Of a stretch of 64,000 nucleotides of DNA, positions 3,335-62,872 are shown piece after piece. The stretch is from NCBI RefSeq assembly GCF_001640025.1, contig NC_031673.1, positions 496,001-560,000 of the forward strand, written 5' to 3'. Source of the DNA: Sugiyamaella lignohabitans. Its lineage: Eukaryota; Ascomycota; Dipodascomycetes; Dipodascales; Trichomonascaceae. Position 1 is the stretch's first letter. Every line of letters starts with the position of its first letter. Under the pieces are notes generated by a model. That model ran no database searches. It saw only the letters and a program-made list of their open reading frames with translations, and had not been told where the DNA came from. Both the position numbers and the translations under genes were made by a program.

Positions 3335-3476
3335 TGCCTCCGACGGCTGGGGCTCCACCCGAGACCCCGCTGCTCCTCTCGCTCCGCTCGAGTCGGCTCG
3401 TCGGGGGACCCAGCAAAAAACTCCTGCGAAGCAGGAGCAACCAGGGTCTGGGGCGGAGCCCCAGCCGCCGGAGGCA
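3335..3476 (+). repeat. Palindromic element, complete A-B form
   Basis: Left arm with tail A, right arm with tail B. The left core hairpin is decayed (ACCCGAG in place of GCCCCAG) while the right one is perfect with loop GGA. It lies in the ASH1 upstream region. Confidence 0.9.
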
Positions 3477-4067
3477 CACCCCCAACGCTGCCTGCCAAGG
3501 CATTCCCGAGCTGACTGTGATCCGAGATCGTCACGTCAGCTAATCTAATCGCCGCTGGAGGTGCCAGAGCTTATCGTCCCGTGCCAGTGGGGGAGTGGGT
3601 GCTCGATTTCGTTCATGAGAATGCGCTGGCCGGGGCTGAGAATGCATGTGCAACTGGTTAAGGTGCTGCTGGTGCTGCTGGTGCTGCGAGTTTACGTCGG
3701 GTGAGACATGATGTGATACGCCATGCACCGGTGCTTCGAAACCGAGCGTGCTGCTCGATACCACCGGACATGCAACTGGCCAGACCAATTGACTCGCACT
3801 ACGTGCATTGTTGTGTCCCGTCAGCAAAACAACTCCGTCTCACGATCCATAATCCATAGTCCAGTATCGACCTCGTGAACATGAGGGGCTCGGTCCCGAC
3901 ACCCCGCCACCCCACTCACCCGTCCCCCGACCCCACCCACCAGATGCCACTAACCAAACCGGCAATTTATTTATCAGATTTACCCGCTTAGTCAGATGCA
4001 GTGACCGCCCGTTTGGCTGCACGGCCGGCTCGTATCAGCCTGGCCGCCCCACGTCGGGGGGTGGGGC

Positions 4068-4206
4068 TGCCTCCGGCGGCTGGGGCTCCGCCCCAGACCC
4101 TGGTTGCTCCTGCTTCGCAGGAGTTTTTGCTGGGAACCCCAGAGGAGACGACTCGAGCGAAGCGAGAGGAGCAGCGGTCTGGGGCGGAGCCCCAGCCGCT
4201 GGAGGT
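4068..4206 (-). repeat. Palindromic element, complete, B-A order
   Basis: Left arm ends in the tail B hairpin, right arm in tail A; this is the reverse orientation of the A-B form. Both core stems are intact, and the right terminus is slightly degenerate (CCGCTGGAGGT). Confidence 0.9.
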
Positions 4207-4308
4207 TCACCCCACTAGCAATCAAAACTCTAATCCGCTCTCTGATCAACACGTTTGCTGTACCGTAGACTCGGGTGCGTCAGATGTGGGAGCAAGGGCC
4301 ATGGGGTG

Positions 4309-4360: not shown

Positions 4361-4827
4361 TGCGTCGGGGGCTCCCCTGAGTTTGCTGTGGTGGTTATGC
4401 AGGGTCTGACTGGGGTGCAGATACGCAGGGCCCATTTCTGAGCAGTTTTTCTGCTGAGGCATCTCTGAAGTGTGTGAGACGGCACCTTTCATTCAGCTCC
4501 GGCAGCAATCCCAGCGTCTCGTACTATTCTGGTATATAAAAGCAATTAAATCTAATAGCAGTTTTCTAATGATAATCGGATTCTTTGCAAATTGATTATA
4601 AAATAAACCTAATATTTTAGAATTTTTATGTGAATTATTTAAATGTGGAAAAATTATGTAGTTCCAATGATATCAGTTTCTCTCTTATTAATAATGTAGC
4701 AGTCTGATTACTACTTCCATCATTATTAGTAGCTGTATCATCAATTATAGTAGGAAGTGGAACAGGAGCAGGTCCCCATTCCCCGCCCAAAACCACTACT
4801 CCAACCCCACCACTGTGGTCCCTACCC

Positions 4828-4889
4828 CGACTCGAGCGAAGCGAGAGGAGCAACCAGGGTCTGGGGCGGAGCCCCAGCCGCCGGAGGCA
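4828..4889 (-). repeat. Palindromic element, solo A arm
   Basis: Single right-oriented arm: tail A, then linker, core hairpin with loop GGA and the CCGCCGGAGGCA terminus, about 150 bp upstream of the TRAPPC13-like start. Confidence 0.9.
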
Positions 4890-5949: not shown

Positions 5950-6089
5950 TGCCTCCGGCGGCTGGGGCTCCGCCCCAGACCCCGCTGCTCCTCTCGCTCC
6001 GCTCGAGTCGTTCCCCTCGACGGTGCCCTCCATCTCCTGCGAAGCAGGAGCAACCAGGGTCTGGGGCGGAGCCCCAGCCGCCGGAGGCA
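5950..6089 (+). repeat. Palindromic element, complete A-B form, convergent gap
   Basis: Complete element beginning 30 bp after the TRAPPC13-like stop and ending about 50 bp before the PAB2-like stop. Both core hairpins are perfect (loops TCC and GGA), and the centre contains CTCGACGGTGCCC. Confidence 0.93.
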
Positions 6090-8549: not shown

Positions 8550-9907
8550 ATGATCTTTCAATTAGCAAAGCGACCAATTCAGTCAGCCGGCGGTCTCCTA
8601 ACCGCAGGCCGCAGAACAGCTACCAATTTCAAGAGACTGCCCTCATTTGCCGAGATTCGGCCTATCAACATTGAGAAATACGCTCGTGAGAACAGTAAGT
8701 AAATGAAATGATTTCATCGATATTATCTTCAATCTCGGTTTCAATTATTCAAACTCACCAAGCAATTGGCACTTCCTTCAACCCCCTCAGTCTGGACACC
8801 CCTTAGCCCGACTCGAGCGAAGCGAGAGGAGCCACGGGGTCTGGGGCGGAGCCCCAGCCGCCGGAGGCAAGTAATCCCCGACCAAGAAACTAACAATTGC
8901 AGAAGCACAAGTTGACGAAGCAGTGGCCGAGTTCAGAGGCCCCACCGAGCCACCAGCAGAGGAGTCAAATGCGTCGCCCAGTCTGATTAAATCGTTTCTG
9001 TACGGATCTGAGAAGTTGAAGAAGGAGCACCAGGAAATAGAGAAGTCGTTTTCGACTGTGCTGATGAGAGGTAAATATGTGCATGAAATCGTCAGTCACA
9101 AGGTGATTCCCGCCAGGGCATACGACTACGTCCAACTGGTGTCCAAAATCTACCCTGCCATTGCCCAGGATCCCAAGAACGGAGTGCACTTGGTGGGTAG
9201 TTGGAGAACGGTCATTGGTGACCAGGACACTTATACGCATATTTGGGAATACAATGGGTTTGAGGGTTTCCACCGCACTCAGAATGTGATTCACGAGGAC
9301 CCTAAGTATCTACAATACCTCGGCGAGTTGAGAGAATGTCTTCGTTCGAGAGAATCGTCGATTATGCAAGAGTTCAGTTTTTGGGGAGGCACTGCCGCTC
9401 CTCGTGAACTCGGGGGTATTTTCGAGCTTCGTTCATATGATTTAAAGGCTGGATGTTTGCTTGAATGGGAGACCCACTGGAAAAAGGGCATTGAATGCCG
9501 TCGTCAGGTCATGGAACCTGTTGGCGCCTGGTTCAGCCAGATCGGGTCTCTAAACCGAGTCCACCACTTGTGGCAGTTTGCAGATCTCGAGCATCGTAAA
9601 TTGAGTCGTGCCAGGAGCTGGGAAATCCCCGGCTGGGCTGAAACTGTAAGTGCTATGATTTTTATTTGTGTGTCGTTTTGCAATACTAACTACTCTTTTA
9701 GACTCACGAGACCGTTAAACTCGTGAACCACATGGAATCGAATATCCTCGTTCCTCTTCCTTTCAGTCCTCTTAGGGTAAGTGAATTCTTGGCTGGGCGG
9801 GTCTGCCTCCGGCGGCTGGGGCTCTGCCCCAGACCCCGTGGCTCCTCTCGCTTCGCTCGAGTCGTCGCGTGGGGTTGGTTGGGACGTCTACTAACGTGTG
9901 CTAGTAA
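8550..9907 (+). CDS. NIPSNAP family mitochondrial protein, four exons
   Basis: Exons 8550-8694, 8903-9645, 9702-9776 and 9905-9907 give 321 residues. The Arg/Ala-rich N-terminus is a likely mitochondrial presequence. The body matches the NIPSNAP family (two dimeric alpha-beta-barrel-like repeats): SFLYGSEKLKKEHQEIEKSF, GSWRTVIGDQDTYTHIWEY, ELRSYDLKAGCLLEWETHW and the terminus ILVPLPFSPLR, which matches where animal NIPSNAPs end. All introns have GTAAGT donors and ACTAAC branch sites. The last intron (9777-9904) lies exactly between the final sense codon and TAA, so exon 4 adds only the stop. Introns 1 and 3 each carry a palindromic half-element; intron 2 (56 nt) does not. Retaining intron 3 would extend the C-terminus by roughly 95 residues. 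Molecular function is poorly known; animal members mark mitochondria for mitophagy. Confidence 0.9.
8809..8869 (-). repeat. Palindromic element, solo A arm in NIPSNAP intron 1
   Basis: Right-oriented A arm inside the 208-nt intron 8695-8902, ending about 20 bp before the ACTAAC branch site. The core stem is perfect, loop GGA. Confidence 0.93.
9804..9864 (+). repeat. Palindromic element, solo A arm in NIPSNAP intron 3
   Basis: Left-oriented A arm with loop TCT inside the 128-nt terminal intron (9777-9904). It begins 27 nt after the donor and accounts for about half of the intron. Confidence 0.93.
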
Positions 9908-13604: not shown

Positions 13605-13657
13605 AACTTGGGAAGTAAATTTATAGAACCTGTGATAGAGCTACTCACGAGCAGACA

Positions 13658-13773
13658 GCCTCCGGCGGCTGGGGCTCGGCCCCAGACCCCGCTGCTCCTC
13701 TCGCTTCGCTCGAGTCGTTACGTCGACGGTCCCAGCAGTCTCCTGCGAAGCAGGAGCCACGGGGTCTGAGGCA
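13658..13773 (+). repeat. Palindromic element, A-B form with truncated right arm
   Basis: Lies between two convergent stop codons (13604 and 13804). The left arm is complete (loop TCG), the centre is close to consensus (CGTCGACGGTCCCAG) and tail B is intact, but the right core hairpin is deleted after GGGTCTG. Confidence 0.9.
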
Positions 13774-15058: not shown

Positions 15059-18000
15059 CTACTCGTCAGCCCCAGGACTTTCTCTCAGAAGTCCACTCAG
15101 ACGTTCACGCTCGGTTCGGATTTTTTCCAGATTATCAGAGAATGAATCTAAAGTTTGACCCGACTCGGGATCAATGATGGGGTCGCGACTACTCCGCTTA
15201 TCATGCAACAAAACTGATAACTTTTCTTCGGCTTCTCTAGCTCTTTGTTGTAGCTTGGCGTTTTCTTGAGCTAAGCGGGATTTTTCAGTTTTGGCCTCTT
15301 CAATATCATGAGCATTGTTGATTGCCTTCTTTTTTAATTCGAGAGAACTAGCTCTTAATTCGTCTCGTTCCTCTTGCAAAATAATGATCTGTGCTTTTAG
15401 ATCACGCAACTGCAAATCAAAATGCTTGTTATTATAATTCGATCCAATGCTATTAATGCTTCTTTCTCCAGTGGTAGTATCAGCTTCGTCGTCGTCTTGT
15501 TGAGACCGAAGTTTGAGTTCATTAATTTCCTCTTGAAGCTTGCTGTTGAGGTCTTTGTGTTTGTTGAGTTCGTCGCGAGTTTTATTCAATGCTTTATCGC
15601 TGTTGCGAACATATTGTAGGGTTTCCTTGTACTGTTGTTCAAGTTCTTGGTAACGCTGTTCAGCAGTTTCTTGATGTTCTTTAAGAGCCTTTTCAAGTTT
15701 GGCATCAAGTTCCTTGGCTTGCGTGGTGTGTGCTTCTGATTGAGAGGAAAGTTGGGTAGTCAATGCATCGTGCTTTTCAGTCAACTCACTCAATGATTTC
15801 TTGTGGTTGTCCAACAATTCTCTGTGGCTTTGTAAGTCGCCAGAAGTAGATTTGAGTTCTTCCTCTAATAAAGCTAACTTGTCTTCGGCTTGCTTCCTGG
15901 CAGCTTCCGATTCAGCAAGTTCCTTCTTGAGACCGCTGACTTGAGTTAATGCAACAGTCAAATCATCAGTAGCTTTTTCAGCTGCTTCTTTATGAGACAC
16001 GTGAAGCTTGTTGGCCATTTCAAGTTGACTCTGGAGATGAGAAATTCTGGGATCTTCTTCGTCATCCTCGTCGAGTCCTCGGCTAGCAGTGCCGTTAGCA
16101 GCGGCAGCACCAGCTGCAGCACCGAGACCAGCACCTACACCAGCAACAGCAAAATATTTAGATCCAGACCACATTGACACAATCTTGTCAATACCATCAC
16201 CAAGTGCCTTGGAAGAATGCTCGTTTTGTTCCTCAGCGGCCTGGAGCAGGTTTCGATGGTCATTTAATTCCCGTTGAGAAGCTTCAAGTTGGAGTTTATG
16301 ATCAGATAGCTGTCTTTCCAAGTCAAGGTTCTTAGCCTCCAGATCACTTCTTGCGCTCTTGTGCTCGTCAAGCTGCTTGGAAAGCTCTTTGAACTTGCTT
16401 TGAGAAGCAGTGATAGCAGCACCAGCAGCAGCCAGTGCAGCAACCTTTTCTGCAGCACTGGAAGTCAATTCCTTGTGCTGAGCTTGTAAGTCTTCATGTT
16501 TTGATTTAAATTGAGCAGCTTCATGTTCAGCAATAACCAGTCGGTCAGCCTGGTTACGAAGTTGTTGTTCAAGTTGAGCATTACTCATTTTCAAGTCATC
16601 AAGAGCTGATAACGAATCTGCATTTCCTAGCAAAAGACCACGACTAGCCCTGGTGGTTTCTAGTTCATTCTGCAACGAGGCGATAGTCGCTTTATGATCA
16701 TCGATTTCTCTTTGATGTTGTTCAGGCACACCAACAGGTTGGGACGACTCTTTCAATGATTTGAGTTCAGCTAAAGCAGCATCGCGTTCCTTTTCAACAG
16801 CTGAGATACGATCGGACGCAGCAGCAGCCTGTCTTTGAATATCTCCTTGAACAGTACGAAGCTCACCTTTCAAGTCGCTAAGTGCAGTAATGAGAATCTC
16901 TCGTTCAGAAAGTGATTCTTGGTTATCTTGAGTGAGTCTTTGAGACACACGACGAAGTTTGAGAACATCGACAGGAGGATTAGATTTCGAAACATATCCA
17001 GCTTCTTTGGCAGCAGCAAGTTCTGTTTCATACCATGAATTAGATGCTTTGAGCTGCTCAATCACTTGATTAACATTATTTGCGTTGGCAGGCTCAGCAA
17101 GATTAACTTGACTGCCTCTAGGAGTCGATTGATCTACTGGATGTTGGTCAGTAAACGAGTCAACAGACCGATCTTGCGACATATTAGACACAGTAGGCGT
17201 GGTAGCATTTTCTTCGGTGTAATCTCTCGTACTTTGTGAAAAATCGGCATCAGCTCCAGACCCAGATCCGAGACCAGCAGTAGCACCAGCTCCAGCTGTA
17301 CCAGCCGCAATACCTGCCAAACCAGCAATTCCAGCCAGTCCTTTAGCACTTGTATCTACTCTTGGCGAAGTACGTAATTTAGGTAACTTGATTGGTTCAC
17401 GGTAGCTCTCACTATCACGACTCGATGTCGAAGAAGGAGAAGAAGCCTGTTGCCAAGCACCGGGAATGTTGGCTACTTGGTCGTGCGAAGGACTAGTCTT
17501 GAACTTTTCCTCGTCCGCAGATTCAAATGTCGTATTAGAAACGCCATCACTGCCATCATCATACGGGCTCCTTTGAACGTCCTGGCTGGCGACTCCATTA
17601 TTACCAGCATTATAGCTGCCATATCCACCATTGCCATTTCCATTGGCATTTCTATTACCACTGCCACTACCATTCGACTTGGCTCCACTAGGATACTCCT
17701 GGTACGGAGAAACAGCTTCTCTAGTGTACTCATCACGGGCCACTCCACGTGGAGAAGACTCTGTATTGGCCTCATGTTGCGACGACTCTGGATGGGGGAA
17801 TCCAGTCACACCAGCACCCATAGCAGCAGCTGCTGCCACAGCACCAGCACCTGCTCCAGCAATACCAGTTCCAGAATTAACTGGTACTCCGTGAGGAGGA
17901 GGAACACTACTAGTACTGGCAGTAGAAAAAGTTGATGGAGGAGTAGAACTGTCGCCAGTCGCTGTACGGTAATTACCAGAAGCAGCACTAGGAGTTCTAC

Positions 18001-19938
18001 TATCATTAACACTCCTTTTACCAGACAGATCTGAAACAGCTGAGTTCTGGGGCACATCAGAATCAACAGGATAATTGATTCGCAATGTATCAAGTACAAA
18101 AACCATACTCAACTTCGAATTAACCTCGTAATTGTCGTAATTAACATCATTATCATTTTCGTGAAGTTCAGGACATTCACCTCCCATAACAAGAATTTTA
18201 TTTCCAGCAAAAGCCGTCATCGAATGACCAGATCTCGGCGAAGGGCCAGGACCAAGGTTCTGGAATGTAAACCATTTCTTAGTAGTAAGTTTAAGAGCAG
18301 ATAAAGTGCCTAAATCTTTACCCTGAGACGACCGGCCACCGAAAACATACATAATATCGCCGACAATCGTGGCAGCATGGCCTTCACAAGGAGCAGGAAT
18401 GAATCCCGAGCAATCCAGCGATGTCCAAGTATTGATACTTGGATCATAGCACCAAGTATCGCTATACCAAAGCTTTCCGTCCGTACCACCGAACAAATAC
18501 AGTTTATCCTGATAACTAACGACGGTGTGATTTGTACGAGGAGGAGGCGAGATCCCGCCTTCTGGCTGCACCAGTGTCCACTGAGCATTTTCCGACCTCA
18601 AAGTCGTTAAATCATACGACATAAGATCCGAGAAAAAGTAGTCGTCCAACTGACCTCCGAACACATAAACCTCCGACCCAATCGTCGAAATTGTATGTCC
18701 ATATCTTCCAGACGGTCTCAAACCAGTCGAATTAGCAATTGTCCACTTAAGAGTGGTAGTATTAAGCAAATAAAGCTCATCATCCAGCACGTCCGTCTCT
18801 TCAATCTTGGTATCACCTCCAAATAAAACAAACGCATTTCCCAGCGTCAAACTCGCGTGTCCGACCCTTGGGCTCGGACATCCCTCCGTCTCGAGCCTGT
18901 ATCCCGCTAAAGTGTCTATTTCTCCGAGTTAGTTTCTCAAATTTCTGGTGCCTTTGCTGCCTCCGGCGGCCGGGCGCTGCCCGGACCCGTTTGTGCTCGC
19001 TTCGCGAGCCCCAGGGACCCCTTGACCGCTCCGCGAAGCGGGGCACAACGAGTCCTGGCAGCTCCCGGCCGCCGGAGGCATCCTGTCCCCTTGGGGCTCG
19101 CGAAGCGAGCACAAACGGGTCCGGGCAGCGCCCGGCCGCCGGAGGCATCCTGTCCCCCAACAGACTTACCACTTTCAATGACCCAGAGGTCGCCGAACAC
19201 GTTCGAACCCTTCAGGCCGCCCATAACGAAGACCTCGCCGTCACGAGCAGCCACGGCATTGGCAGCGTGGCCGTGTCGCGGGAAGGGCGACGAGTTGGAG
19301 ATAGTGTGTCTCGACCACGGGTACTGTGGTTGTGACGAAGGGTGAGGTGACGATTGTGATCGCAAATTACTCGGCACGCTCTGTTGATGATGAAGTTGTT
19401 GTTGTTGAGGAGACTGCTGCCATTGCTGCTGACCTCCCCATTGCTGTTGGCCTCCAGGATACTGCTGGCCCATAGGACTAGTAGCGTTTCTGGAGCCAGG
19501 AGGCGATCTGACCCCTCCCGAGCTGCCATTCGGACCGTGGCCCGACATAGCGCTATTACTTCGAGATCCGGATTGTGGATAGTTTCTGTTCTGAGGAGAT
19601 GCTCCATTTGGACCTCCAGAACCCGACCCAGGACTTCGTCCTGGATATGGCCCGCTTGAACCTGGTCCCGAGTACAGATTGGATATAGTGTTAGCGATGT
19701 TGGGGACGTTACCAGCGCCATGACCATTATGAGGACTCTGGCTGCCATTGCCGCTAATCATACTGTTGGTGCTGCTGACAGTCGACGCTCCACTGACCTG
19801 TCTCTGAGTGGGCGACGAGCCTTCTTCACCACCAGCACCACCTACCAGCGCATCTTTCGCACCTTCAAACGCTTTTGGGACCACCGAGTTCCGGGCCCCG
19901 TCTTTCTTATTCTTCTTATTTTTCGAGAAAATAGCCAT
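15059..19938 (-). CDS. KEL1: Kel1/Tea1-type kelch-repeat cell-polarity protein
   Basis: Exons 19170-19938 and 15059-18915 give 1541 residues. The Gly/Ser/Asn/Gln-rich N-terminus is followed by six kelch repeats, including PRHGHAANAVAARDGEVFVM, PRVGHASLTLGNAFVLFGGD, GRYGHTISTIGSEVYVFGG and PRSGHSMTAFAGNKILVMGG, which form one beta-propeller. A Ser/Ala/Gly-rich linker precedes a long C-terminal coiled coil (about the last 700 residues). This architecture is that of Kel1/Kel2 and fission-yeast Tea1, which mark growth sites and act in cell fusion and mitotic exit. The 254-nt intron (18916-19169) separates kelch 1 from kelch 2 and contains three GC-rich arms. I placed the acceptor at AATAG because it restores WVIESDTLAGYRLETEG; a second AG 9 nt downstream would also keep frame and remove three residues. 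Confidence 0.9.
18958..19147. repeat. Divergent palindromic element with duplicated right arm, kelch-gene intron
   Basis: A subfamily variant in which the core stem is CCGGGC-GCT-GCCCGG instead of CTGGGGC-NNN-GCCCCAG. The complete element (18958-19080) has a C-type left tail and a right tail CCGC-loop-GCGG. It is followed by an extra right arm with C tail ending at 19147. Both right ends are followed by the same TCCTGTCCCC string, so the terminus was duplicated together with its flank. Confidence 0.85.
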
Positions 19939-19997: not shown

Positions 19998-20295
19998 TGT
20001 CTCCGGCGGCTGGGGCTCTGCCCCAGACCCCCTGGCTCCTCTCGCTTCGCTCGAGTCGGGGCGGGGAGGTGTCCTCATGCCTCCGGCGGCTGGGGCTGTG
20101 CCCCAGACCCCCTGGCTCCTCTCGCTTCGCTCGAGTCGAGCGGCCACGATCCCAGCAAACTATTGCGAAGTAGGAGCCACGGGATCTGGGACGCAGTCCC
20201 AGCCGCCGGAGGCACACCCCGACCCCCAATTGACCAGAGTCTCCTGCGAAGCAGGAGCAAAGGGGTCTGGGGCGCAGCCCCAGCCGCCGGAGGCA
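19998..20295. repeat. Cluster of four palindromic-element arms
   Basis: A solo left A arm (19998-20058), a complete A-B element (20079-20215) and a solo right B arm ending at 20295 lie about 60 bp upstream of the kelch ATG. In the complete element the right core hairpin (20186-20202) reads CTGGGAC-GCA-GTCCCAG, a compensatory G-C to A-T change that keeps pairing. Confidence 0.9.
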
Positions 20296-21301: not shown

Positions 21302-21362
21302 TGCCTCCGGCGGCTGGGGCTCCGCCCCAGACCCCGTGGCTCCTCTCGCTTCGCTCGAGTCG
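21302..21362 (+). repeat. Palindromic element, solo A arm
   Basis: Left-oriented arm with loop TCC and tail A, followed by the start of a centre (GGGCGTCGGGGG) but no B arm. Confidence 0.9.
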
Positions 21363-22231
21363 GGCGTCGGGGGTGTCAGAAGCGTTGGGTTTGGTGAACT
21401 AAGTTCTGGATTTTGGGTTCTGTGAGTGTGAGTGTGAGTGGGTGGAATCTGTTACTAGCTCGTTTGTCTGATGATCCTGCTACTGCTCCTGTTTCAGGGT
21501 TTAATTTTGTGTGATTCTCCCTCAATTGGTTTCAATCCAGCTCAATTCAGTTAAATTCAAGTCAATTCGGATCAATTGCCTGATTTTGTGCCGATACTGT
21601 CAACTGTCGATTCAATTGACTCTGCTCATCAGCTCAGTTGACTTTTTTCACTGCTGGAGTGTAACATTCCATTGCATGATCTTGAATTTTTCACTGCATG
21701 ATGAGCGAGCACCTGAACTATGTATTTCCATTTGCATGATCTGAACAATGTTCACTGCATGACCTGATTTTTGTTTCATGGCCATGGATCGCAATTGGCT
21801 TGAATTTCTAATTTCTGAACCAGTGGCAGTCAACTGGAAAACTCATTACGTACCAAAATCACGGGTTTCTGGATCACATTCACCCTCTCTCTACTTTTCA
21901 CCACCGTCGTCAACCTGCAGCCAGGGGGTTGATCCCGTTATAACAATGCAGATCATTTCATTTACCCCAGTGATTTTGGTGTTCCTGAGGCTCTATGGTC
22001 CTCAAAATAAACCTAATCGAACCGCAATTGTTCCTTACATATCCAAATACTCTCACAAGTGCAATTGCATTACTTCATCTGCTCTAATATCGACTCAAAA
22101 ATGTCCCTACCCCGTTAGAAGCATGTTCCTTCCAGCTGACCCTCCTCACTCTGAACTACCTCTATCTCCAGTAAAAGCACTTCTTTCGTCGATTCCACCC
22201 CCTCCCCAAACTGCTCCATCGCCCGACGCAC

Positions 22232-22362
22232 CGATTCGAGCGCAGCGAGAGGAGCAGCGGGGTCTGGGCGGAGCCCCAGCCGCCGGAGGCTGCACCCTCC
22301 GGCCCCCTGACTGCCTCCGGCGGCTGGGGCTCTGCCCCAGACCCCGTGGCTTGCTTCGCTCG
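22232..22362. repeat. Two palindromic arms in outward order
   Basis: A right-oriented arm (tail A-like, core with one G missing) ends at 22290, and a left-oriented arm begins at 22312. The arms therefore sit back to back, termini facing each other, unlike complete elements. The second tail is shortened to TTGCTTCGCTCGA. Confidence 0.85.
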
Positions 22363-23043
22363 AAAAAATACGTTTGGAAAGAGGCTCGTGGAGCAGAGAG
22401 GGATGTATGGCGGTGTGGAAACGGGTGGTGTACGAGTGCGGTGCCGATCATGGCGAGGCTTTTCAGGGGGTTTCTGGGGTGCATGAGGGTTCGTGGTGCC
22501 GTGCCGTGGTTTTCGACTGACGAAATTATTTTTTAAAAAATTCAGGGTCCTGAAAAATCGTCAGTGAGGTGGCTATTTTACCCGGAGGCGGTCTGACGAG
22601 TCGTCTTTGCTGTTTATTTTCGCAATCAATCTACAAAATAGCCAAGTTTGAACGATCATGCTTGATCATGTATCTGCAACCCGTATATAACAGCTATATT
22701 GCTTATATTTTTGTTTGCTTGCTGATAGCGACAATCACTTTTTTTTTATATCCCGGATTAACGGGCCCTTATCTATTCGGCAGTTTCTCACTAAAACTGG
22801 TATCACAAGTGTCACTCAGGATCTAACAGCCTGACCATACCCAGTTGAGTCAAAGTGCTGTTCTCTTGGAGCTGGTCTTTACTGGATCCCACGGGTTAAT
22901 CAGTCTCACCCAAAACCACTACTTCTGGGACTATCAGGCTAACTCAACGGCTACTGAATGACATCACTGATATTAATAATGATCAGTTTCTGTCAAAGAC
23001 GATAAACGCACACAGGGGCCCCATGCAGGGTCCTAAAGGGGCG

Positions 23044-23186
23044 TGCCTCCGGCGACTGGGGCTGCGCTCCAGAGCCGACTTCTCCTCTCACTGCGCTCGA
23101 GTCGTTACGTGTAGACCACCCCCCCTCCAACTCCTGCGAAGCAGGAGCAACCAGGGTCTGGGGCGGAGCCCCAGCCGCCGGAGGCA
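23044..23186 (+). repeat. Palindromic element, complete A-B form
   Basis: The left arm is degenerate, with core 23056-23072 keeping pairing through a G-T wobble (CTGGGGC-TGC-GCTCCAG). The right arm is perfect with loop GGA. Confidence 0.9.
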
Positions 23187-23871: not shown

Positions 23872-24012
23872 TGCCTCCGGCGGCTGGGGCTCCGCCCCAG
23901 ACCCTGGTTGCTCCTGCTTCGCAGGAGTTGGAGGGGGAGGTCCACACGTAACGACTCGAGCGGAGCGAGAGGAGCAGCGGGGTCTGGGGCTCCGCCCCAG
24001 TCGCCGGAGGCA
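23872..24012 (-). repeat. Palindromic element, B-A order, right core loop flipped
   Basis: Left arm with tail B, right arm with tail A. The right core (23984-24000) has loop TCC where right arms normally have its complement GGA, as if the hairpin had been inverted in place or copied from a left arm. Confidence 0.9.
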
Positions 24013-24739
24013 CTGGCGGCCACCCGAAGAGCACGGAATATGAATTGCCCGGCCAGGGTTGCAGCAGCTGTCGGGGGAGTGTTTTTGAGACACTGGCCGT
24101 GGCTGGGAATGGGTGCCGGGAGGACCGGGGCCGAGGGCGGATTGGGAAAATGCCCAGATTTGGGAGAGTGCGAGGCCGGCGAGCCGGTTTGGGAGGAGCC
24201 CTTGGTTGCGGCGGAGAGTGGAAAATACCCGGCGCCTTTGGCCGCCTGTGGATTGTTTTTTTTGTGTTTTTATTGTTTCTTATTTTGGGGCTTTTGCGTT
24301 TGCGTGAGAGAGAGAGAGCGAGGGCCTAGAAGACGTTGACGCCGTTGGATCGACTGCAGCAGAAACGGGCCCGGTGAGATGCCCACGGCGCCGGTGTCCA
24401 AATGCGAGGGCCAGATCCTGTCTTGGCAAGTGGGTCGCGAGATGGCGAGGGGCAGACGAGGGGAAGACGAGGGACAGGCGAGCGACCGTCGAAGGGTAAA
24501 AGTGGGTCACTCGAGGGGCAGATGAGGGACACATGAGACAGAGACAGAGACTGACAGTGGAGGGTCTGATCTAGGATGAAAAGAACCAAGCAATTGACAG
24601 TGAGACTGACAATGTCTCACCAGTTATAGGATGCTCGTGTGACGGTCAGACACTCTTCCAACTTCGTCAACCACCATCTGCCCTGAAAGAGGTTAGCAGA
24701 AACCCCTGGTCAACCCGCAGTAGCCTGTTCCCCCTCGCC

Positions 24740-24801
24740 CGACTCGAGCGAAGCGAGAGGAGCAACCAGGGTCTGGGGCGGAGCCCCAGCCGCCGGAGGC
24801 A
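24740..24801 (-). repeat. Palindromic element, solo A arm
   Basis: Right-oriented A arm with perfect core (loop GGA), about 800 bp downstream of the SFP1 stop. Confidence 0.9.
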
Positions 24802-25590: not shown

Positions 25591-26574
25591 TTAATGTGTA
25601 GAGTGGCCACGGTGATATTTCAGTCCGTTCAAGTTCTTATATCGCTTGCCACACACCTCGCATCGATAAGGCTTGTCCTTCTCCATACCCATTCCCTCTG
25701 GATATGGAGTATTCGAGGTGGGATCGATAATGCTGTAAGTTCCGTCTTCATTGAGATGCAACGTCTGGTTCTGATGACCGTGCATTCGATGGTATTTCAA
25801 CCCGTTCTGGTTCTTATAAGTCTTTTCACAGCCAATAACTGGACATTTAAACGGTTTGTGCTCGCCCCTCTCCATGACATACAAATGGCGAGCGGGGTCG
25901 TCAATACACATTTCGTCGTCCTCATCCATCATCATTGGCGTAGCAGTCGCACTCGAAACAGGCGACAAAAACACCTCGTTCGTCGACACAGCCTCTAGAC
26001 TCTGCATGCGACGCATCACTGGCGGTTCCACAGGCGGCGACGGCGAGATATGGGCCTCTTCATAATGGCGCAGCAAATCGTGCAAAGTAGGCAGAATCTG
26101 GCCACAGCACGAGTAATCCTTACAAAAATCGGCCTCCAAATTCGGCAAATAGCTCGTCGAGTTAATCGGCGACATCGACACCGGCACCGGTGGCATGTTA
26201 TTAAAAATGACCCTGCTACTGTTAGACCCGTGTTTGGAGGGTGGGATGCTGCCTCCGGCGGCTGGGGCTCCGCCCCAGACCCTGGTTGCTCCTGCTTCGC
26301 AGGAGTTGGAGGGGGGTTCCACACGCAACGACTCGAGCGCAGCGAGAGGAGCAGTGGGGTCTGGGGCGCAGCCCCAGCCGCCGGAGGCATGTGCCCCCCG
26401 GAAGGTGTGTACTTACTCGTCGCGGAGCCAGGAGCCCACCGACATGCCGCCCCAGGAGATACCGCCCATGCCCTGTGAGTGGGCCATGCTTTCGCGGCGG
26501 AAGCGCTGCTGGGGCTGTGACGAGAATTGGTTGTTGCGTTGGTACGAGATGTCTATTGGCACGGCCGAGCTCAT
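25591..26574 (-). CDS. SFP1: Sfp1-like zinc-finger transcription factor, two exons
   Basis: Exons 26417-26574 and 25591-26212 give 259 residues. Sfp1 is the TOR/PKA-responsive activator of ribosome-biogenesis and ribosomal-protein genes. Exon 1 encodes the conserved N-terminal GGISWGGMSVGSWLRDE, split after residue 52. Exon 2 has an atypical first finger (CKDYSCC with HDLLRHYEEAH), then FKCPVIGCEKTYKNQNGLKY and the final YRCEVCGKRYKNLNGLKYHR ending in HSTH at the C-terminus, the arrangement typical of Sfp1. It is much shorter than the S. cerevisiae protein, lacking most of its low-complexity sequence. The 204-nt intron has donor GTAAGT, branch TCTAAC (the only non-ACTAAC branch here) and a complete palindromic element. 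The gene is isolated, with 5.6 kb downstream and 7.1 kb upstream free of other genes. Confidence 0.92.
26250..26389 (-). repeat. Palindromic element, B-A order, in SFP1 intron
   Basis: Complete element inside intron 26213-26416, starting about 27 nt from the donor and ending just before the TCTAAC branch region. In the direction of SFP1 transcription it reads A-B. Loops TCC and GCA differ between arms, so only the stems match. Confidence 0.93.
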
Positions 26575-27846: not shown

Positions 27847-28022
27847 TGCCTCCGGCGGCTGGGGCTCCGCCCCAGACCCTGGTTGCTCCTCTCGCTGCGC
27901 TCGAGTCGTTGCTGGGGGGTGGGTGCTCGTTCAGTCGGTCGGGAAAATCTCCTACCCCCGGGAAATCTCCTGCGAAGCAGGAGCAACCAGGGTCTGGGGC
28001 GGAGCCCCAGCCGCCGGAGGCA
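27847..28022 (+). repeat. Palindromic element, complete A-B form, long centre
   Basis: Both arms are perfect (loops TCC and GGA), with an extended centre of about 60 bp containing an extra partial CTCCTA before tail B. The outer flanks also mirror each other (GGGGGTC and ATACCCCCC). Confidence 0.93.
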
Positions 28023-37701: not shown

Positions 37702-37762
37702 TGCCTCCGGCGGCTGGGGCTGCGCCCCAGACCCCATGGCTCCTCTCGCTGCGCTCGAGTCG
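37702..37762 (+). repeat. Palindromic element, solo A arm
   Basis: Left A arm with loop TGC, followed by a partial centre (TTACGTCAGGGTCCC) and no B arm. Confidence 0.92.
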
Positions 37763-38578: not shown

Positions 38579-38718
38579 GTTACCCCTGAGATGCCTAAAA
38601 AGATCAGCAATTTACCCCTGAGTTTTCACTGCAGCTGATATGCATTTCAACCCCCCAATTAACTCCAGCTGTCAAATCCACCCCAAAAATAATCCCCGAA
38701 CTCCTGAACCCCCGTACC

Positions 38719-38774
38719 TCTCCTGCGAAGCAGGAGCCACGGGGTCTGGTGCGCAGACCCAGCCGCCGGAGGCA
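38719..38774 (-). repeat. Palindromic element, solo B arm at PNG1 3' end
   Basis: Right B arm ending 10 bp from the PNG1 stop codon. The core is altered (CTGGTGCGCAGACCCAG), yet GGGTCT and AGACCC can still pair. Confidence 0.85.
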
Positions 38775-38783
38775 CACCTCCCC

Positions 38784-40093
38784 TCACTGACCCGACCCGT
38801 CCTCCCCTCGAGCCCGTGTCCATTCGCCCTTCCCGCTCTCACGCGGACCCAATTCAGCAGTCACTGATGGGATAGGAGGCGGCTCGTCAAAATAAGACGC
38901 CAGCTCCGCCTGTTCAATCGCATCCTGCTCCTCCAGCACCATAATCTCGGCAGCATTCATATTCGCGCGACGGGCACTCGAGATCCTGAACAGAACATCA
39001 TTCAACTGCGACTCGCTAACCCGGTTTCTCGCTAACGCTTTCCCCGAATCGCGAACGTACCGTCTTGTCACATCCACCGCTCCTTCAACTGATCGGTGTT
39101 AGTTTCTGGGAGGGGGTGCTGCCTCCGGCGGCTGGGGCTGCGCCCCAGACCCCGTGGCTCCTCTCGCTTCGCTCGAGTCGGGCGTCGACGGGCCCAGTTG
39201 TGGATGTACTTACCGGAGAAACCAATCACGTATGCCATTTTCTTACCCCAGCCTTCTCCGTACAGCAGGGGCTTATCCCACGCTTTCTCACACGAATCCG
39301 CCTGTTCCGTTAGTTATCCACACCAGTTGACCCCCCACGCCCGACTCGAGCGAAGCGAGAGGAGCAGCGGGGTCTGGGGCGCAGCCCCAGCCGCCGGAGG
39401 CAGCACCTCCACCGTCACTTACGTGAACCCATCGCTCCTGGTGCTCCGAGTACACCTCGGTCCACACGTGGTCCTCGCTGTTCCAGATGTAGCGCACTTT
39501 TGAGCCCAGTGCGCGACACAGGAGTGTGAAACACTGGAAGGTTAGTTTCTATTGCCAAAAGAAAGATCGAAAAAATCGACTTACGTCAGCCCACTCTCCG
39601 CACCGACCCTTGCGGAACCGGAGCAGCACCCGGGGTGATCCGTAACGAGGAAATCGGGTGAGTGCTTTACAACTGCGACAGCGGTACACCTCGACCACTC
39701 CTGCACCGTCTTTCGCCTCTTTTTCAGTCGGTTTCTCCCGTCCAATGCCGTCTGTCTCTCCCTGGACTCTCGTTAGTACTCCACCTTCCATGCCGCTATC
39801 AACCCTGGTTCCCAGTCAATGAATCCAAAATACTGTAAATTAATACATACACCACACGAATCACATGCTGGAGAGTTCACCCACGTGAAAAATTCGTCTT
39901 TAAACCACTCGAGAAGCTCCATTATCAGATAATCCTGCAACCCCCACGACCGGTCCTCATTCTCCCGCTGCTCAGCCCGGCCATACAGCCTTTCTAACGG
40001 CAGCACCGCCAGCGCCTCATCCAGAAGCCTGCTATCCTCATACACCATCGGCGTATTAGCCACTCGATACAGGGTACTCGCAAAATCCGCCAT
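38784..40093 (-). CDS. PNG1: Peptide:N-glycanase, five exons
   Basis: Exons 39851-40093, 39585-39761, 39423-39533, 39214-39301 and 38784-39088 give 307 residues. Png1 removes N-glycans from misfolded glycoproteins exported from the ER, in the cytosol with Rad23 and the proteasome. The transglutaminase-like core is clear. Zinc-binding CDSCG (exon 1) and CRSC (exon 2) are present, then the catalytic Cys in [10 protein letters not shown], His in [14 protein letters not shown] (exon 3) and Asp in ADSCEKAW (exon 4). The C-terminus ends [14 protein letters not shown], as in fungal homologues. All four introns have ACTAAC branches. Introns 1 and 2 (87 and 51 nt) are plain; introns 3 and 4 (121 and 125 nt) each hold a solo A arm in opposite orientation. 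CTG encodes conserved leucines here, which argues against CUG-Ser decoding. Confidence 0.93.
39120..39180 (+). repeat. Palindromic element, solo A arm in PNG1 intron 4
   Basis: Left A arm (loop TGC) in intron 39089-39213, followed on the + strand by centre sequence GGGCGTCGACGGGCCCAG, so it looks like a complete element lacking its B arm. Confidence 0.93.
39342..39402 (-). repeat. Palindromic element, solo A arm in PNG1 intron 3
   Basis: Right A arm (loop GCA) in intron 39302-39422, placed between the donor and the ATAACTAAC branch. It is inverted relative to the arm in intron 4, and exon 4 (88 nt) lies between the two. Confidence 0.93.
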
Positions 40094-40206: not shown

Positions 40207-40341
40207 TGCCTCCGGCGGCTGGGGCTCCGCCCCAGACCCTGGTTGCTCCTCTCGCTTCGCTCGAGTCGGGCGTATACGGTCCCAGCCGCTCGCAGAGCGA
40301 GCACAACGGGGTCTGGGGCAGCGCCCCAGCCGCCGGAGGCA
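40207..40341. repeat. Palindromic element, complete A-C form
   Basis: Lies between the PNG1 start and the stop of the upstream NCBP3-like gene. Left arm with tail A, right arm with a C-type tail (GCTCGC-AGA-GCGAGC) and core loop AGC. The centre is GGGCGTATACGGTCCCAG. Confidence 0.92.
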
Positions 40342-41799: not shown

Positions 41800-41952
41800 T
41801 GCCTCCGGCGGCTGGGGCGCTGCCCCAGACCCCGTTGTGCTCGCTTCGCGAGCGACCAGGACCGTTGACGTTTCACCGAAAACCCCTCACCCGACTCGAG
41901 CGAAGCGAGAGGTGCAACCAGGGTCTGGGCGGAGCCCCAGCCGCCGGAGGCA
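41800..41952. repeat. Palindromic element, complete C-A form
   Basis: About 50 bp from the GH76 stop. Left arm has core loop GCT and a C tail (GCTCGC-TTC-GCGAGC); right arm has tail A and a core lacking one G (CTGGGC-GGA-GCCCCAG). Confidence 0.92.
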
Positions 41953-44189: not shown

Positions 44190-44329
44190 TGCCTCCGGCG
44201 GCTGGGGCTCCGCCCCAGACCCTGGTTGCTCCTGCTTCGCAGGAGTTAGCCAAGACCGTAGACGCAACGACTCGAGCGAAGCGAGAGGAGCAACCAGGGT
44301 CTGGGGCGGAGCCCCAGCCGCCGGAGGCA
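44190..44329 (-). repeat. Palindromic element, complete, B-A order
   Basis: Perfect cores (loops TCC and GGA). The centre on the minus strand is GCGTCTACGGTC. Confidence 0.93.
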
Positions 44330-51823: not shown

Positions 51824-52267
51824 CTCAAATATTGTATAATGGCTGGAGAATGCTAGAGTGATAATTCAGATCGCTTCACGACTTTTATGCACCTGGGCCC
51901 TTACAGGTACTAAAGCAGGGTAACCGGCGTATCCACAATAAACCCAGTGAAAAATTCACCCAAACGGCCATTTTCCAGCCAAAAAAGTCTCAAATAAAAC
52001 CCAACTCTGGTTCAAACACAATTGCTCGCGAAGCGAGCAAGACGGGGTCTGGGGCAGCGCACCAGCCGCCGGAGGCCGACCCCCGTTCACGAGTATTTTC
52101 CAGAGGCACGGCTGCCCGATGCGGGATTGACAACGTCAACAAACAGGGTGCATATGTAGATACCTACGAGTAAGCACTTGTTATCAACAGGATCCTACCC
52201 CTGGAAAGTGACAGTTTTAGATACAAAATCTGGTGATACGGATTGTGGTAGTGAATCATAGTTCCTG
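51824..52267. other. Divergent intergenic region SmF / SWA2
   Basis: A 444-bp shared promoter region with one solo palindromic arm (52022-52077). No other motif was recognised. Confidence 0.6.
52022..52077 (-). repeat. Palindromic element, solo C arm
   Basis: Right arm with perfect C tail (TTGCTCGC-GAA-GCGAGCAA) and core CTGGGGC-AGC-GCACCAG, which has one mismatch. Confidence 0.85.
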
Positions 52268-55089: not shown

Positions 55090-55235
55090 TGCTTCCGGCG
55101 GCTGGGGCGCTGCCCCAGACCCCGTTGCGCTCGCTTCGCGAGCATTTGCGGGACCCCCAGCGCAGTTTTCACCCCAAGCTCGCTCGCGAAGCGAGCACAA
55201 CGGGGTCTGGGGCAGCGCCCCAGCCGCCGGAGGCA
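55090..55235. repeat. Palindromic element, complete C-C form, convergent gap
   Basis: Begins 33 bp after the SWA2 stop and ends 53 bp before the TFB1 stop. Both tails are C-type (GCTCGC and GCGAGC stems) and core loops are GCT and AGC. The centre includes GGGACCCCCAGCGCAG. Confidence 0.93.
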
Positions 55236-59353: not shown

Positions 59354-59516
59354 TGCCTCCGGCGGCTGGGGCTATGCCCCAGACCCCGGTGCTCCTCTCG
59401 CTTCGCTCGAGTCGGGCGTGTGGACCGTGGCTGCTGTTGGCTCCTCCCCTCGAACCGACTCGAGCGGAGCGAGAGGAGCAGTGGGGTCTGGGGCGTAGCC
59501 CCAGCCGCCGGAGGCA
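59354..59516. repeat. Palindromic element, complete A-A form, convergent gap
   Basis: Lies between the SSZ1 stop (59303) and the ABCD transporter stop (59554), leaving 50 and 37 bp. Both arms end in tail A. Core loops are TAT and GTA, variants that are complementary to each other. Confidence 0.93.
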
Positions 59517-59553
59517 GGCGTGGCACGGAAGTATCTACGGTAGTGGGTCATAT

Positions 59554-62037
59554 TCAGGCAGCGGTTTTGCCGCTGAGTTCGTCTACGATTTGCTGGCGAC
59601 GCGCTTTCCAGGCGTCGACCTGCGAGAGTTTGGCTTTCAGGTCCTCGATTTCTTTGTCGACCGTGAGTCGTGCTTCAGCGGTTCCCGATCGTTCTAGAGA
59701 CCATTCATCTCCGTTGGCACCGAGTCCGACTCGGAGCTGGGCCGTGTGGTACTTAAGTAGCGAGGGTCGGTGGCTGATGGTCACGAGAGTGATGCTCTGC
59801 TTTTTGCAAATCTCGTAGAGGAGACCTTCGACATCAGCACTTACTGCACTGGTGCCTTCGTCGATGACGGCGAATTTGGGGTTTTTGTACAGGATTCGGG
59901 CAAACATCACTCGCTGCTTCTCACCACCAGAGAAGACGTCTTTCCATTGCTTGCGGGTCTCCCATCCGCCCTCTCGACCGGGAATGTATTCCAGACGAAC
60001 AAGTTTCAGGATCTCCATCAATTTGGCATCGGTTCCACCTGCTTCAAGCATGTCAGCATGTGAATCGGGATAGATGATTTGGTCACGAAGTGTACCATGA
60101 CTCAGATATGGTCTCTGAGGCAGGAACGTGATGTCCTTTGGCAGTGGTTTCGAAACGAGACCCCGATATACAGGCCATAATCCAGCTAGAACTCGCGCTA
60201 TAGACGACTTTCCGACGCCGTTGGCACCAGAGATGAGAATATGGTCGCCAGGATTGATACGGATGTTGAGATCTTTGATAAGCACTTCTCCTGGTTGACC
60301 GGTACGAGCCAGTCCTGGAATAACGATAGGAGTGTGTTCAAATCGAACCCCCTCGAACCCCTGTTGCACTGTTCCATGTACATCGGCCAAGGTAAAAGGT
60401 TCAGCCACCTCGTTCGGAGCTAGTTCGTGGCCATATGAGTTGGCATGAACTCTATGTAATGTCGACAGCAGTTGGAATACTCGCGATGTGTATCCAGCTA
60501 ATTCAGCCAGATCCTTGATAGAATACATCATACGACCACCTGCATCAGCAAGTGACAACATCAAACGCTTATTGGTTATGAATTGCTTCATACGATCACG
60601 TTCACGGAAATCCCGTTTGGCTAGTGAGATCGATGGAGTGGTCGTGGCAAGCTCGCTGATGCCGTCATTACCACTCCAAGTAGGTAGGAAAACTGGCAGT
60701 GATGCAAACATATATCCTAAAGCTGACCAGGAATACTTGAGAATAAAGTCCTCAAACATATTGTAAGACACTTTAATCTTCAGGATCTTGGAAATGTGAA
60801 CGATGACTCGTTTGTATGTCTTGTCGAGAATGGCTCTTTCAAAGCCAGTACCATCGTAAAAGGCGATTTCTTCGGCATTAGTAATGAGTTTGGTGTGTGC
60901 ATTTCGATAGTCACCTTCAAGTCTTGCTTCTGCTGCTGCTAGTCTTCCAAATGGAGGAGCAACGCTTTTAAGAAGCCAGGCTGTAAGTGCATAATTGGAA
61001 AATATACCAATGAGTGCTAGAGGGCCCAGATTTCTTTGTAGTTGGTAGCTGAATATAATGAAATCTGCAAATGGTTTACCCAAGTTCGAGTAAAGCGATG
61101 CTGCCGAGTCACAGAACCGTGTCACGTCAGCTGTAATATACTGGTCGGCACCTTCAATTCCACCGTCTATATTGGTCACCTTATAGTATCCCAGTTCCTT
61201 GGAAAGATAAATATCGTGAATGTAACGAATCAGCTTAGTTCTAAAAGCAATAGAGATTTTTGCCTGTAAAAACCTGATCATAGCATTGGTGTACGAGGCA
61301 GGGATAGCTAGCAGAAACCAGTATCCCAGTCCACGAAGGAAATCCTTACCATTAGCAGCAATCAAATCACGAACAATTTGACCATCCAGCTTAGCTACCA
61401 GAAGTGACAGATATGTTCTGGAAGCAAGAAATAGGGCATGAATAAATAATAAAGCCGATGTCTTAGACTGTAGTCTAGGAACAATGATAGACCAAATAGC
61501 CGAGAACTCCTTCAGAAATTGTCGGTTGACCCCGGCTTTCTTCTCAGCCACCGACCCATTACCGGATTTTCCTCCTGAACCAGACTGTAAAAACAGTCTT
61601 CTATGAGCCTCGAAGGTGACTTTCTTGGTCGGTTTAATCACCACTCTAGCAGTAGCATCTCCACTGACCTCTCCGCTCTCCACAGTTGAAGACTTTGATT
61701 TCGAAGTTAATGGTTTGTTTGCTGTAGGTACAAAGATTTCTCGTGACCATCCGTCACTTAATAAAACCGATGATGACTGACGATGTAATTCTCTTCGTTC
61801 TTTAGCGTCTCGTTTACGTCTCTTCTGGAGTTCGGTGATTCCGAACGTGACAGACCCAGCTGTCAGCAAAGCCAGCAGCAAGATCACAGCCTTGATTCGA
61901 CCTGACGAGTATCGGTATTGAGATCGAATCAGCTGTAGAGCAAGTCTTGGATTCTGAGCCAAACTCAAAGCCAACTGAGCATACATCATCAGCATGCGCT
62001 TTGTACGGTCTGACCGGAGAGTCGAGCTGGCTGCCAT
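59554..62037 (-). CDS. Peroxisomal ABCD half-transporter (Pxa1/Pxa2 family)
   Basis: An 827-residue half-size ABC transporter of the ABCD (ALD) family, which carries very-long/long-chain acyl-CoA into peroxisomes as a heterodimer. The membrane domain contains ASRTYLSLLVAKLDGQIVRD and FLRGLGYWFLLAIPASYTNA, and the family's EAA-like loop NAEEIAFYDGTGFERAIL. The nucleotide-binding domain has Walker A ISGANGVGKSSIARVL, signature FSGGEKQRVMFARIL and Walker B FAVIDEGTSAVSADVEGL, followed by the switch histidine in TISHRPSL. The N-terminus is basic and has a membrane segment near residue 55-70. I cannot decide between PXA1 and PXA2, so no symbol is given. The heterodimer partner is not in the window. 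Confidence 0.88.
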   Translation of the reverse strand: MAASSTLRSDRTKRMLMMYAQLALSLAQNPRLALQLIRSQYRYSSGRIKAVILLLALLTAGSVTFGITELQKRRKRDAKERRELHRQSSSVLLSDGWSREIFVPTANKPLTSKSKSSTVESGEVSGDATARVVIKPTKKVTFEAHRRLFLQSGSGGKSGNGSVAEKKAGVNRQFLKEFSAIWSIIVPRLQSKTSALLFIHALFLASRTYLSLLVAKLDGQIVRDLIAANGKDFLRGLGYWFLLAIPASYTNAMIRFLQAKISIAFRTKLIRYIHDIYLSKELGYYKVTNIDGGIEGADQYITADVTRFCDSAASLYSNLGKPFADFIIFSYQLQRNLGPLALIGIFSNYALTAWLLKSVAPPFGRLAAAEARLEGDYRNAHTKLITNAEEIAFYDGTGFERAILDKTYKRVIVHISKILKIKVSYNMFEDFILKYSWSALGYMFASLPVFLPTWSGNDGISELATTTPSISLAKRDFRERDRMKQFITNKRLMLSLADAGGRMMYSIKDLAELAGYTSRVFQLLSTLHRVHANSYGHELAPNEVAEPFTLADVHGTVQQGFEGVRFEHTPIVIPGLARTGQPGEVLIKDLNIRINPGDHILISGANGVGKSSIARVLAGLWPVYRGLVSKPLPKDITFLPQRPYLSHGTLRDQIIYPDSHADMLEAGGTDAKLMEILKLVRLEYIPGREGGWETRKQWKDVFSGGEKQRVMFARILYKNPKFAVIDEGTSAVSADVEGLLYEICKKQSITLVTISHRPSLLKYHTAQLRVGLGANGDEWSLERSGTAEARLTVDKEIEDLKAKLSQVDAWKARRQQIVDELSGKTAA

Positions 62038-62872
62038 GGTGAACTGCCGTTATCTCACTCGAACACACACAAAAAAGCAATAAATAAATAAATAACAGAA
62101 ATCCACGTCCAGTCTCTACTAAACCCTGAGATCAACTTCTGAACCCGTGAACTAAGCACCTGCCTGAATCTAGATTTAACTTTCTGTCCTCGAGCCACCG
62201 CCAGCAAGCCCTGTGATGAAGTAGTAATATGGAGGTTGCTGAGTGGGGTACTGCATATCCGGGGAAATTTATGCGGGATCAAACCCATGCCGAGGACACA
62301 GCCCTGCCGACCGCCGTGTCCCCGACCGTTGCCGAAGAAATACGTTTACCTGACACTTTTCAGGGGGTGTGCCTCCGGCGGCTGGGGCTCTGCCCCAGAC
62401 CCCATGGCTCCTCTCGCTACGCTCGAGTCGTTTCGTCGACGGTCCCGGTAACCTCCTGCGAAGCAGGAGCTACGGGGTCTGGGGCAGAGCCCCAGCCGCC
62501 GGAGGCAGTGCCCACCCGGTGAAGTTGCCCACCGCCAAAAAAAGTGTGTGGAATAAGCTACAACACCTTCTGTTCACGCCTGGTCTCCCACGGCATTACT
62601 GAATAAGGCCCTCCGAGGCTTAAATATGATTGATCGGACGGGAAATCTTGCTGTACTCGAGATATGGTCGTAGCTGGCATCCGGTTTTTTATGTGGAAGT
62701 AAAGTTGCAATGTGCTTCGCGGTGAATGGAAAAATTTAGTTGCAATCGAGTCGAATCCACATGGCTGTGCTCGTTCAAGTCTTATATAATCTCATGACGG
62801 TATGGGCTTACACCGGAGGTGTAGGAGAAAGTGTGAGATAATGGGTCAATGCAAACAAATGTAATAAATAAG
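62038..62872. other. Intergenic region ABCD transporter / REPKLPF gene
   Basis: An 835-bp tandem intergenic region with one complete palindromic element (62370-62507). No other feature was recognised. Confidence 0.6.
62370..62507 (+). repeat. Palindromic element, complete A-B form
   Basis: Arms have loops TCT and AGA, complementary to each other. Tail A has TAC in place of TTC. The centre is near consensus (CGTCGACGGTCCCGG) and tail B is perfect. Confidence 0.93.

Follow-up and report, generated by a model that had tools for sequence, protein, structure and literature searches.

What moves or maintains a short, GC-rich palindrome that recurs throughout a stretch of yeast chromosome? The stretch in question, hereafter the window, comprises 64,000 nucleotides of Sugiyamaella lignohabitans (C4:496001-560000) from an assembly of 15.93 Mb in four contigs; a review credits the species with a genome of 16.0 Mb on four chromosomes and with 6,820 genes, only 5% of which contain introns (PMC5499181). 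An earlier note, which described the palindrome from the window alone, took the sequence to be chromosomal yeast DNA with spliced genes. This is borne out by an intron carrying the signals GTATGT, TACTAAC, and ATATAG, and by Pfam matches in six of the eight long open reading frames (ORFs), including TFIIH p62, Hsp70, ABC transporters, and Kelch repeats; the window is ordinary nuclear yeast DNA. The element is real, genome-wide, and similar to the doublets of repetitive extragenic palindromic (REP) sequences known in bacteria as REPINs. On balance, though with little more than even confidence, we consider it a non-autonomous mobile palindrome of yeast nuclear chromosomes that acts in the manner of REPINs and bacterial interspersed mosaic elements (BIMEs).

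The element is built from half-units, each consisting in order of the terminus TGCCTCCGGCGG (complement CCGCCGGAGGCA), a core hairpin, a linker starting ACCCyG, and a tail hairpin. A G-rich stretch of approximately 11 bp precedes the terminus, which has no GTAG or CGTC tag. The core reads CTGGGGC-NNN-GCCCCAG, replaced in 13 halves by CCGGGC-NNN-GCCCGG; the stems of both classes pair perfectly. The tails were classified in a 264-kb sample made up of the window, the 100 kb preceding it on C4, and 100 kb of C1, which together hold 226 half-units. The commonest tail, B (CTCTCGCT-N-CGCTCGAG), is exact in 92 of these, followed by A (CTCCTGC-NNN-GCAGGAG, exact in 65) and D (GCTCGC-NNN-GCGAGC, exact in 19), with C in 11 and E in one. 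Pairing is likewise perfect in the A, D, and E tails. The element has no coding capacity of its own, as had been stated; a protein-coding reading was rejected when one translated frame of one pair yielded no protein with three shared words. At position 284 of locus L054 a variant terminus, TGCCTCCGGC, stands before a hairpin of another kind (CTCGGGCAGAGCCCGA), which suggests that there may be more subfamilies.

Matches to the terminus (up to two mismatches) number 60 in the window compared with 4.1 ± 2.2 in shuffled sequence, and those to the core hairpin (up to three mismatches) 57 compared with 2.4 ± 1.4. Each strand of the window carries 29 half-units, which makes 58 in total, distributed over 33 loci that span positions 3335-62507. 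The earlier note had reported a modular palindrome in both orientations at 34 loci; the recurrence and the orientations hold, and the difference of one locus is due to merging. Across the genome, an exact search reveals 5,858 termini (2,942 + 2,916), where a reversed control pattern gives two (0 + 2); in 1,092 cases two exact termini form a compact pair of 127-157 bp, which the control never does. If the ratio in our sample, 226 half-units to 186 exact termini, holds elsewhere, the genome carries about 7,100 half-units. The spacing of about 1.9 kb given previously is correct as an average only, the C1 sample having two half-unit-free stretches of approximately 13 and 14 kb (62018-75491 and 75491-90011). 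Element-rich stretches alternate with element-free ones, and the GC content tends to be higher in the element-rich bins of the window.

The sample contains 70 inverted pairs of less than 220 bp, 46 of which measure 135-147 bp and 52 of which combine an A and a B tail. The element typically takes the form of an asymmetric inverted pair, approximately 140 bp long, with tail A on one side and tail B on the other, and the uniformity in length and tails indicates that the pair has been copied as one unit rather than assembled from chance neighbours. Copies also combine with one another, as in the nested copy at 19998-20295 of the window and, in the C1 sample, a fused dimer with one common core hairpin (21314-21570) and a tandem array (15132-15382). 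Adjacent copies in the C4 sample resemble each other more than chance would allow, none of 5000 shuffles reaching the observed value. We also considered a complete transposon lying between distant half-units, and rejected it: masked self-comparison of the sample turned up repeats of local extent, together with one dispersed match of 54 bp that consists of element sequence.

The position of the element relative to genes was assessed using gene ends taken from our own codon model, which was trained on ORFs rather than on the annotation and in which elements were penalised as coding sequence. A half-unit lies within 400 bp of 58 of the 91 stops, and the nearest one has its terminus facing the stop in 54 of these 58 cases, 37 of them at a distance of 23-64 bp; in pairs this orientation follows from the geometry of the unit. 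Of 64 3′ ends, 36 have an element edge 20-60 bp downstream of the stop, compared with 11.7 ± 3.2 expected when the elements are re-placed at random within the same spacers (none of 2000 runs reached 36). When short convergent spacers are left out, the figure is 21 of 48 (4.9 expected). Gene starts give 9 of 66 where 5.5 are expected, and 164 of 2000 random runs reach 9. The distance preference is thus strong at 3′ ends, while gene starts show little. Where a single half-unit has coding DNA no more than 150 bp beyond its terminus, the gene runs the same way as the half-unit in 17 cases and the opposite way in 10, a weak sense preference. The DNA between stop and element is AT-rich, as it is in element-free 3′ flanks. 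The distance preference was not part of the earlier description, nor were the A/B asymmetry and the half-unit held in common with bacteria, to which we return below.

Exon overlap was therefore checked on the 68 ORFs of at least 300 amino acids, four of which hold an element: in frame within a coding sequence (CDS), in an intron, in a probable intron, and at the first bases of the ORF, once each. The intron copy (36784-36922) confirms that elements occur in introns as well as in intergenic DNA; the probable intron surrounds the group at 18958-19147, with GTAAGT just upstream and its 3′ site not identified. The statement that the element never occurs in an exon has to be qualified, because a B half-unit lies in frame in CDS AWJ20_65 (L020, 5475-6728, minus strand), within a low-complexity part of a C2H2 zinc-finger protein; this copy is outside the window. 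A translation from C1 matches AWJ20_65 at 100% identity, and the 16 other homologues listed align over 19-35% of that protein, so insertion into a CDS is not proved.

A single strand of the 62370-62507 pair adopts the shape of one long hairpin (z score -12.5 against shuffles); for two single half-units the gain over shuffles is modest (-2.7 and -2.1). Among 201 gap-free copies of the CTGGGGC core, from which six copies with insertions or deletions had been dropped, substitutions amount to 0.9% per site in the stems and 16.1% in the loop; in a slightly wider set of copies the terminus shows 1.7%. Eighteen of the 23 changed stem pairs are mismatches, four are G.T pairs, and one is compensated, as expected for copies no longer held by selection on the fold. 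We take this to mean that the core fold counts when a copy seeds others and counts for less once the copy has been inserted; the imperfect B tail speaks against a strict form of this interpretation. Loops agree between the halves in 43 of 56 pairs where 29.4 are expected, and none of 5000 shuffles reaches 43. The tail apex on the complementary strand is GCGNAGC in 202 of the 226 half-units, and GCGAAGC in 152. The heptamer GCGAAGC forms an unusually stable DNA mini-hairpin, for which reason a DNA fold would be favoured over an RNA fold. The stems CTCTTGC/GCAAGAG and GCTCCGC/GCGGAGC each occur four times among the 100 pairs listed.

Target-site duplications were sought at 70 pairs and none were found, and at no length from 2 to 9 did the two junctions match more often than those of pairs unrelated to each other. 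This speaks against a standard miniature inverted-repeat transposable element (MITE) of the DDE type and against copying driven by a long interspersed nuclear element (LINE). A short interspersed nuclear element is disfavoured on the same grounds, the expected LINE-type duplication being absent at these 70 pairs. The earlier note took a trans-acting transposase, a replication-based process, or gene conversion to be implied; the need for something acting in trans we uphold. The Y1 transposase associated with REPINs (PF01797) gives no match in the yeast genome at E ≤ 1, with six of 14 control genomes positive, five of them over the cut-off. The Helitron model (PF14214) gives none either, and was positive in none of the control genomes; a search for hAT likewise gave none, without a positive control genome, so that neither result demonstrates absence. 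There are 13 matches to RVT_1, including two groups of three with identical scores, and two to DDE_1. One LINE-like locus of 8 kb contains ORFs of 1137 and 639 amino acids and one degenerate terminus, and lacks long end repeats. At one of the two DDE_1 loci elements adjoin the gene as they do other genes, one pair lying 55 bp past its stop, and no autonomous copy with the ends of the element was seen at this locus. Several copies of a LINE-like retroelement have identical scores (e.g., C3:656590-657351; L054), and the retroelement is possibly recently active.

The resemblance in form to REPINs and to mitochondrial GC clusters, suggested previously, is supported. According to two papers, REPINs, REP sequences, and BIMEs are short palindromes in which inverted doublets replicate as a unit, form single-strand hairpins and mosaic arrays, and are extragenic, mainly 3′ of coding regions (PMC3116915, PMC3733652). 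All of this resembles the yeast element. Unlike REPINs, which by the definition in one of these sources carry a GTAG or CGTC tag at one end (PMC3733652), the yeast element lies in a eukaryotic nucleus, has units of approximately 140 bp with two hairpins per half, and has a terminus without such a tag; since the associated transposase was looked for and not found, we do not class it as a REPIN. The GC42 cluster of Saccharomyces mitochondria is likewise a GC-rich palindrome whose loops vary more than its stems and whose units merge, by a mechanism given as unknown; it differs in being mitochondrial and in having an AG target duplication (PMC4478555). MITEs share with the yeast element the lack of coding sequence, the terminal inverted repeats, and the high copy number; the yeast element differs in having no target-site duplication, in its frequent single halves, and in its two hairpins per half. 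Among the titles and abstract openings searched, a range that leaves most subscription papers outside, there is no description of the element in Sugiyamaella or of the form found in Desulfovibrionaceae, nor a name for the latter, and the text of a paper on intrastrand triplexes has no word starting with Desulfo or Sphingomonas.

We surmise that spread of the element would involve, as an intermediate, single-stranded DNA bearing hairpins, the folded ends of which would be recognised in trans, and that new copies would settle just past gene ends, where access may be easiest or harm least. The trans-acting factor would not appear to be a Y1 transposase. Movement itself we infer. In its favour are a copy number well above the controls, the uniform A/B pairs, the nested and fused copies, the scarcity of compensated stem changes alongside two perfectly pairing core classes, the agreement of paired loops, the placement past stops, the AT-rich flank retained ahead of the element, and the stable single-strand fold. 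Against it, the single genome covered showed no movement, and no trans-acting factor was found in it. The B tail, though the commonest, is an imperfect hairpin, and perfect folding of the tail can therefore be no requirement. A unit that is always paired leaves single halves unexplained, and 86 of the 226 half-units are single or more widely separated. Adjacent copies in the C1 sample are no more alike than chance (1721 of 5000 shuffles reach the observed value). Finally, correction of palindromes during replication could produce matching arms and loops, and with them part of the pattern.

The gene-end positions might instead mean that the element belongs to the host, each half acting in the 3′ untranslated region or terminator of the preceding gene and pairs serving convergent genes, with selection keeping the copies and conversion spreading them. 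The concentration of edges at 20-60 bp and the terminus facing the stop (allowing for the geometry of pairs) agree with this, as do convergent spacers holding one element, whose median length after subtraction of 140 bp is 110 bp against 208 bp for element-free ones. A third or so of the stops (33 of 91) have no half-unit within 400 bp, however, and long stretches are empty; single half-units prefer the sense orientation only weakly, elements also turn up within introns and once within a CDS, and 22 of the 23 core stem changes are uncompensated, all of which makes a host function unlikely. Very unlikely, in our estimation, is that the element is simply a MITE of one of the DDE transposons in this genome: the terminal inverted repeats, the length of approximately 140 bp, the lack of coding sequence, and the two DDE_1 matches would fit, but single halves fit poorly, none of the 70 pairs has a target-site duplication, and at the DDE_1 locus examined elements lie just as they do beside other genes. 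Most unlikely is that elements of the mitochondrial GC-cluster type arrived in the nucleus, or that the LINE reverse transcriptase of this genome made the copies. GC42 of S. cerevisiae mitochondrial DNA does show the same variable loops and merging units, according to the source cited above, and the 13 RVT_1 matches, with their two groups of identical scores, count in favour; the missing target duplication speaks against both variants, and neither accounts for the half-unit in bacteria.

That bacterial half-unit is the most striking and least explained part of the analysis. An exact scan of a prokaryote genome collection (257 Gb) with a single 29-position pattern, TGCCTCCGGCGGCTGGGGCNNNGCCCCAG, found one stretch, in Solidesulfovibrio aerotolerans (G001). 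The genome of this bacterium contains 187 copies (97 + 90) of the terminus TGCCTCCGGCGGC and none (0 + 0) of its reverse. In a sample of the phylum, three of 118 genomes have at least 35 copies and the rest at most four, which is also the maximum for the reversed controls. Within the family Desulfovibrionaceae, 39 of 99 genomes contain at least 10 exact termini (maximum 285), and no reversed control exceeds five.

The bacterial form consists of the terminus, an adjoining hairpin with a varying stem, AT-rich in genome G037, and then in most cases ACCCCC or AATCCC. Inverted pairs are found in S. aerotolerans, with TGCC outermost as in the yeast element, and close direct repeats in genomes G041 and G037. 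The bacterial palindromes differ from the yeast element in that the core stem changes from unit to unit, in copy numbers of tens to hundreds rather than thousands, and, in S. aerotolerans, in a purine-rich flank (AGAAGA) where the yeast flank is G-rich. Four pairs of S. aerotolerans, picked for compactness (loci among L032-L036), have one terminus 23, 28, 44, and, in the fourth pair, 273 bp past the stop of a recognisable gene; the genes facing them on the other side gave no family or showed no nearby stop. A Y1 transposase is no constant companion of the bacterial palindrome, because G041 has none (E ≤ 0.001), S. aerotolerans two, one of them with an internal stop, and G037 21.

Two contigs from one metagenome carry paired units of the form CTGGGGCC-NNN-GGCCCCAG-ACCCC beside terminase and portal genes. 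These prophage-like pairs lie at 407-534 of L030 and 11787-11916 of L031, the latter 9 bp past the terminase stop; the best phage relatives of the terminase are mixed. The contigs were found with a 19-mer, and since the second stem arm, the ACCCC, and the inverted partner were not part of that pattern, they provide independent support. A third contig, L029, has the 19-mer without a hairpin and looks like a chance match. A looser pattern gave nine stretches on eight contigs and a third pattern 14 stretches. Searches with 34 bases of the yeast half-unit against plasmids, phages, and E. coli gave matches at chance level (best E 0.02, 0.03, and 10), and the 138-base pair against plasmids a best E of 0.03 among the 20 of 32 records listed. 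Positions 3630-3650 of MH992176, a bee-associated microvirus, match 21 of 21 bases of the core hairpin (E 0.03), probably by chance.

The terminus, the GC hairpin, and the ACCCC are thus common to the yeast element and the palindromes of Desulfovibrionaceae. The units are so short that common descent cannot be shown, most bacterial core stems are unlike that of the yeast, and matches in plasmids, phages, and E. coli rise no higher than chance; it may be, although we lean against it, that unrelated GC-rich palindromes have converged or coincide and that the yeast element has no connection with them. The two kinds may also have converged on one recogniser. Chance alone seems hard to believe as the cause of the likeness, given that the sole exact match to the 29-position pattern fell in a genome so rich in termini and devoid of the reversed sequence, and that both contigs retrieved with the 19-mer held the further features named above. 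The common half-unit suggests horizontal arrival or a recogniser held in common. More doubtful is the wider proposal that bacteria and a eukaryotic nucleus share a single lineage of mobile palindromes or a single system for recognising them, in which a factor other than Y1 would recognise TGCCTCCGGCGG beside a hairpin of nearly any stem and copy the units past gene ends in Desulfovibrionaceae, prophages, and Sugiyamaella.

Should the copies move, this would be a REPIN-type element with thousands of copies in eukaryotic chromosomes and without the bacterial transposase of REPINs. The half-unit common to yeast and bacteria makes it testable what moves GC-rich palindromes. The copies also constitute a large natural set of hairpins just past stops, useful for studies of 3′-end formation in yeast.

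The inverted pairs of the window with tails B/A are situated at 3335-3476, 5950-6089, 23044-23186, 27847-28022 (with a long centre), 28704-28853, 30282-30424, 32286-32444, 36784-36922, and 62370-62507. The second of these lies between convergent coding segments whose stops are 29 and 52 bp away, and the copy at 36784-36922 occupies the intron of an ABC-G transporter gene that carries the splice signals given at the outset. Pairs of the order A/B are found at 4068-4207, where a single C half-unit follows at 4309 and extends the locus to 4384, and at 23872-24012, 26250-26389, 33491-33630 (61 bp after the stop of the ABC-G transporter gene), and 44190-44329. The remaining pairs are B/D at 40207-40341 and D/B at 41800-41952, preceded by stops at 38 and 53 bp, respectively; D/D at 55090-55235, between convergent genes for a TPR/UBA protein (stop 32 bp away) and TFIIH p62 (52 bp); and B/B at 59354-59516, between those for an Hsp70-family protein (50 bp) and an ABC transporter (37 bp).

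Single half-units with tail B lie on the plus strand at 9804-9879, 21302-21377, 29412-29487, and 37702-37777, and on the minus strand at 4814-4889, 8794-8869, and 24726-24801; one with tail A (38699-38774) and one with tail D (52002-52077) are on the minus strand. At 13657-13732 (plus strand) a B half-unit 52 bp past a stop is followed by the A tail of a partner whose terminus is unrecognised. The B half-units at 39120-39195 (plus) and 39327-39402 (minus) face each other across unique DNA. Three composite loci complete the set: a group of three half-units with the CCGGGC-type core at 18958-19147; the nested copy, in which a pair at 20078-20214 sits within the centre of a second pair (19998/20295); and two back-to-back half-units with tails B and C at 22216-22387.

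The pair at 62370-62507 follows a 5S rRNA gene (62555-62675, minus strand) at a distance of 47 bp from its 3′ end; that gene is the sole Rfam match in the window at gathering thresholds. A tRNA search gave none in the window and two doubtful calls with introns in the sample. Genome-wide there are 46 5S rRNA matches, dispersed rather than gathered in one tandem array.

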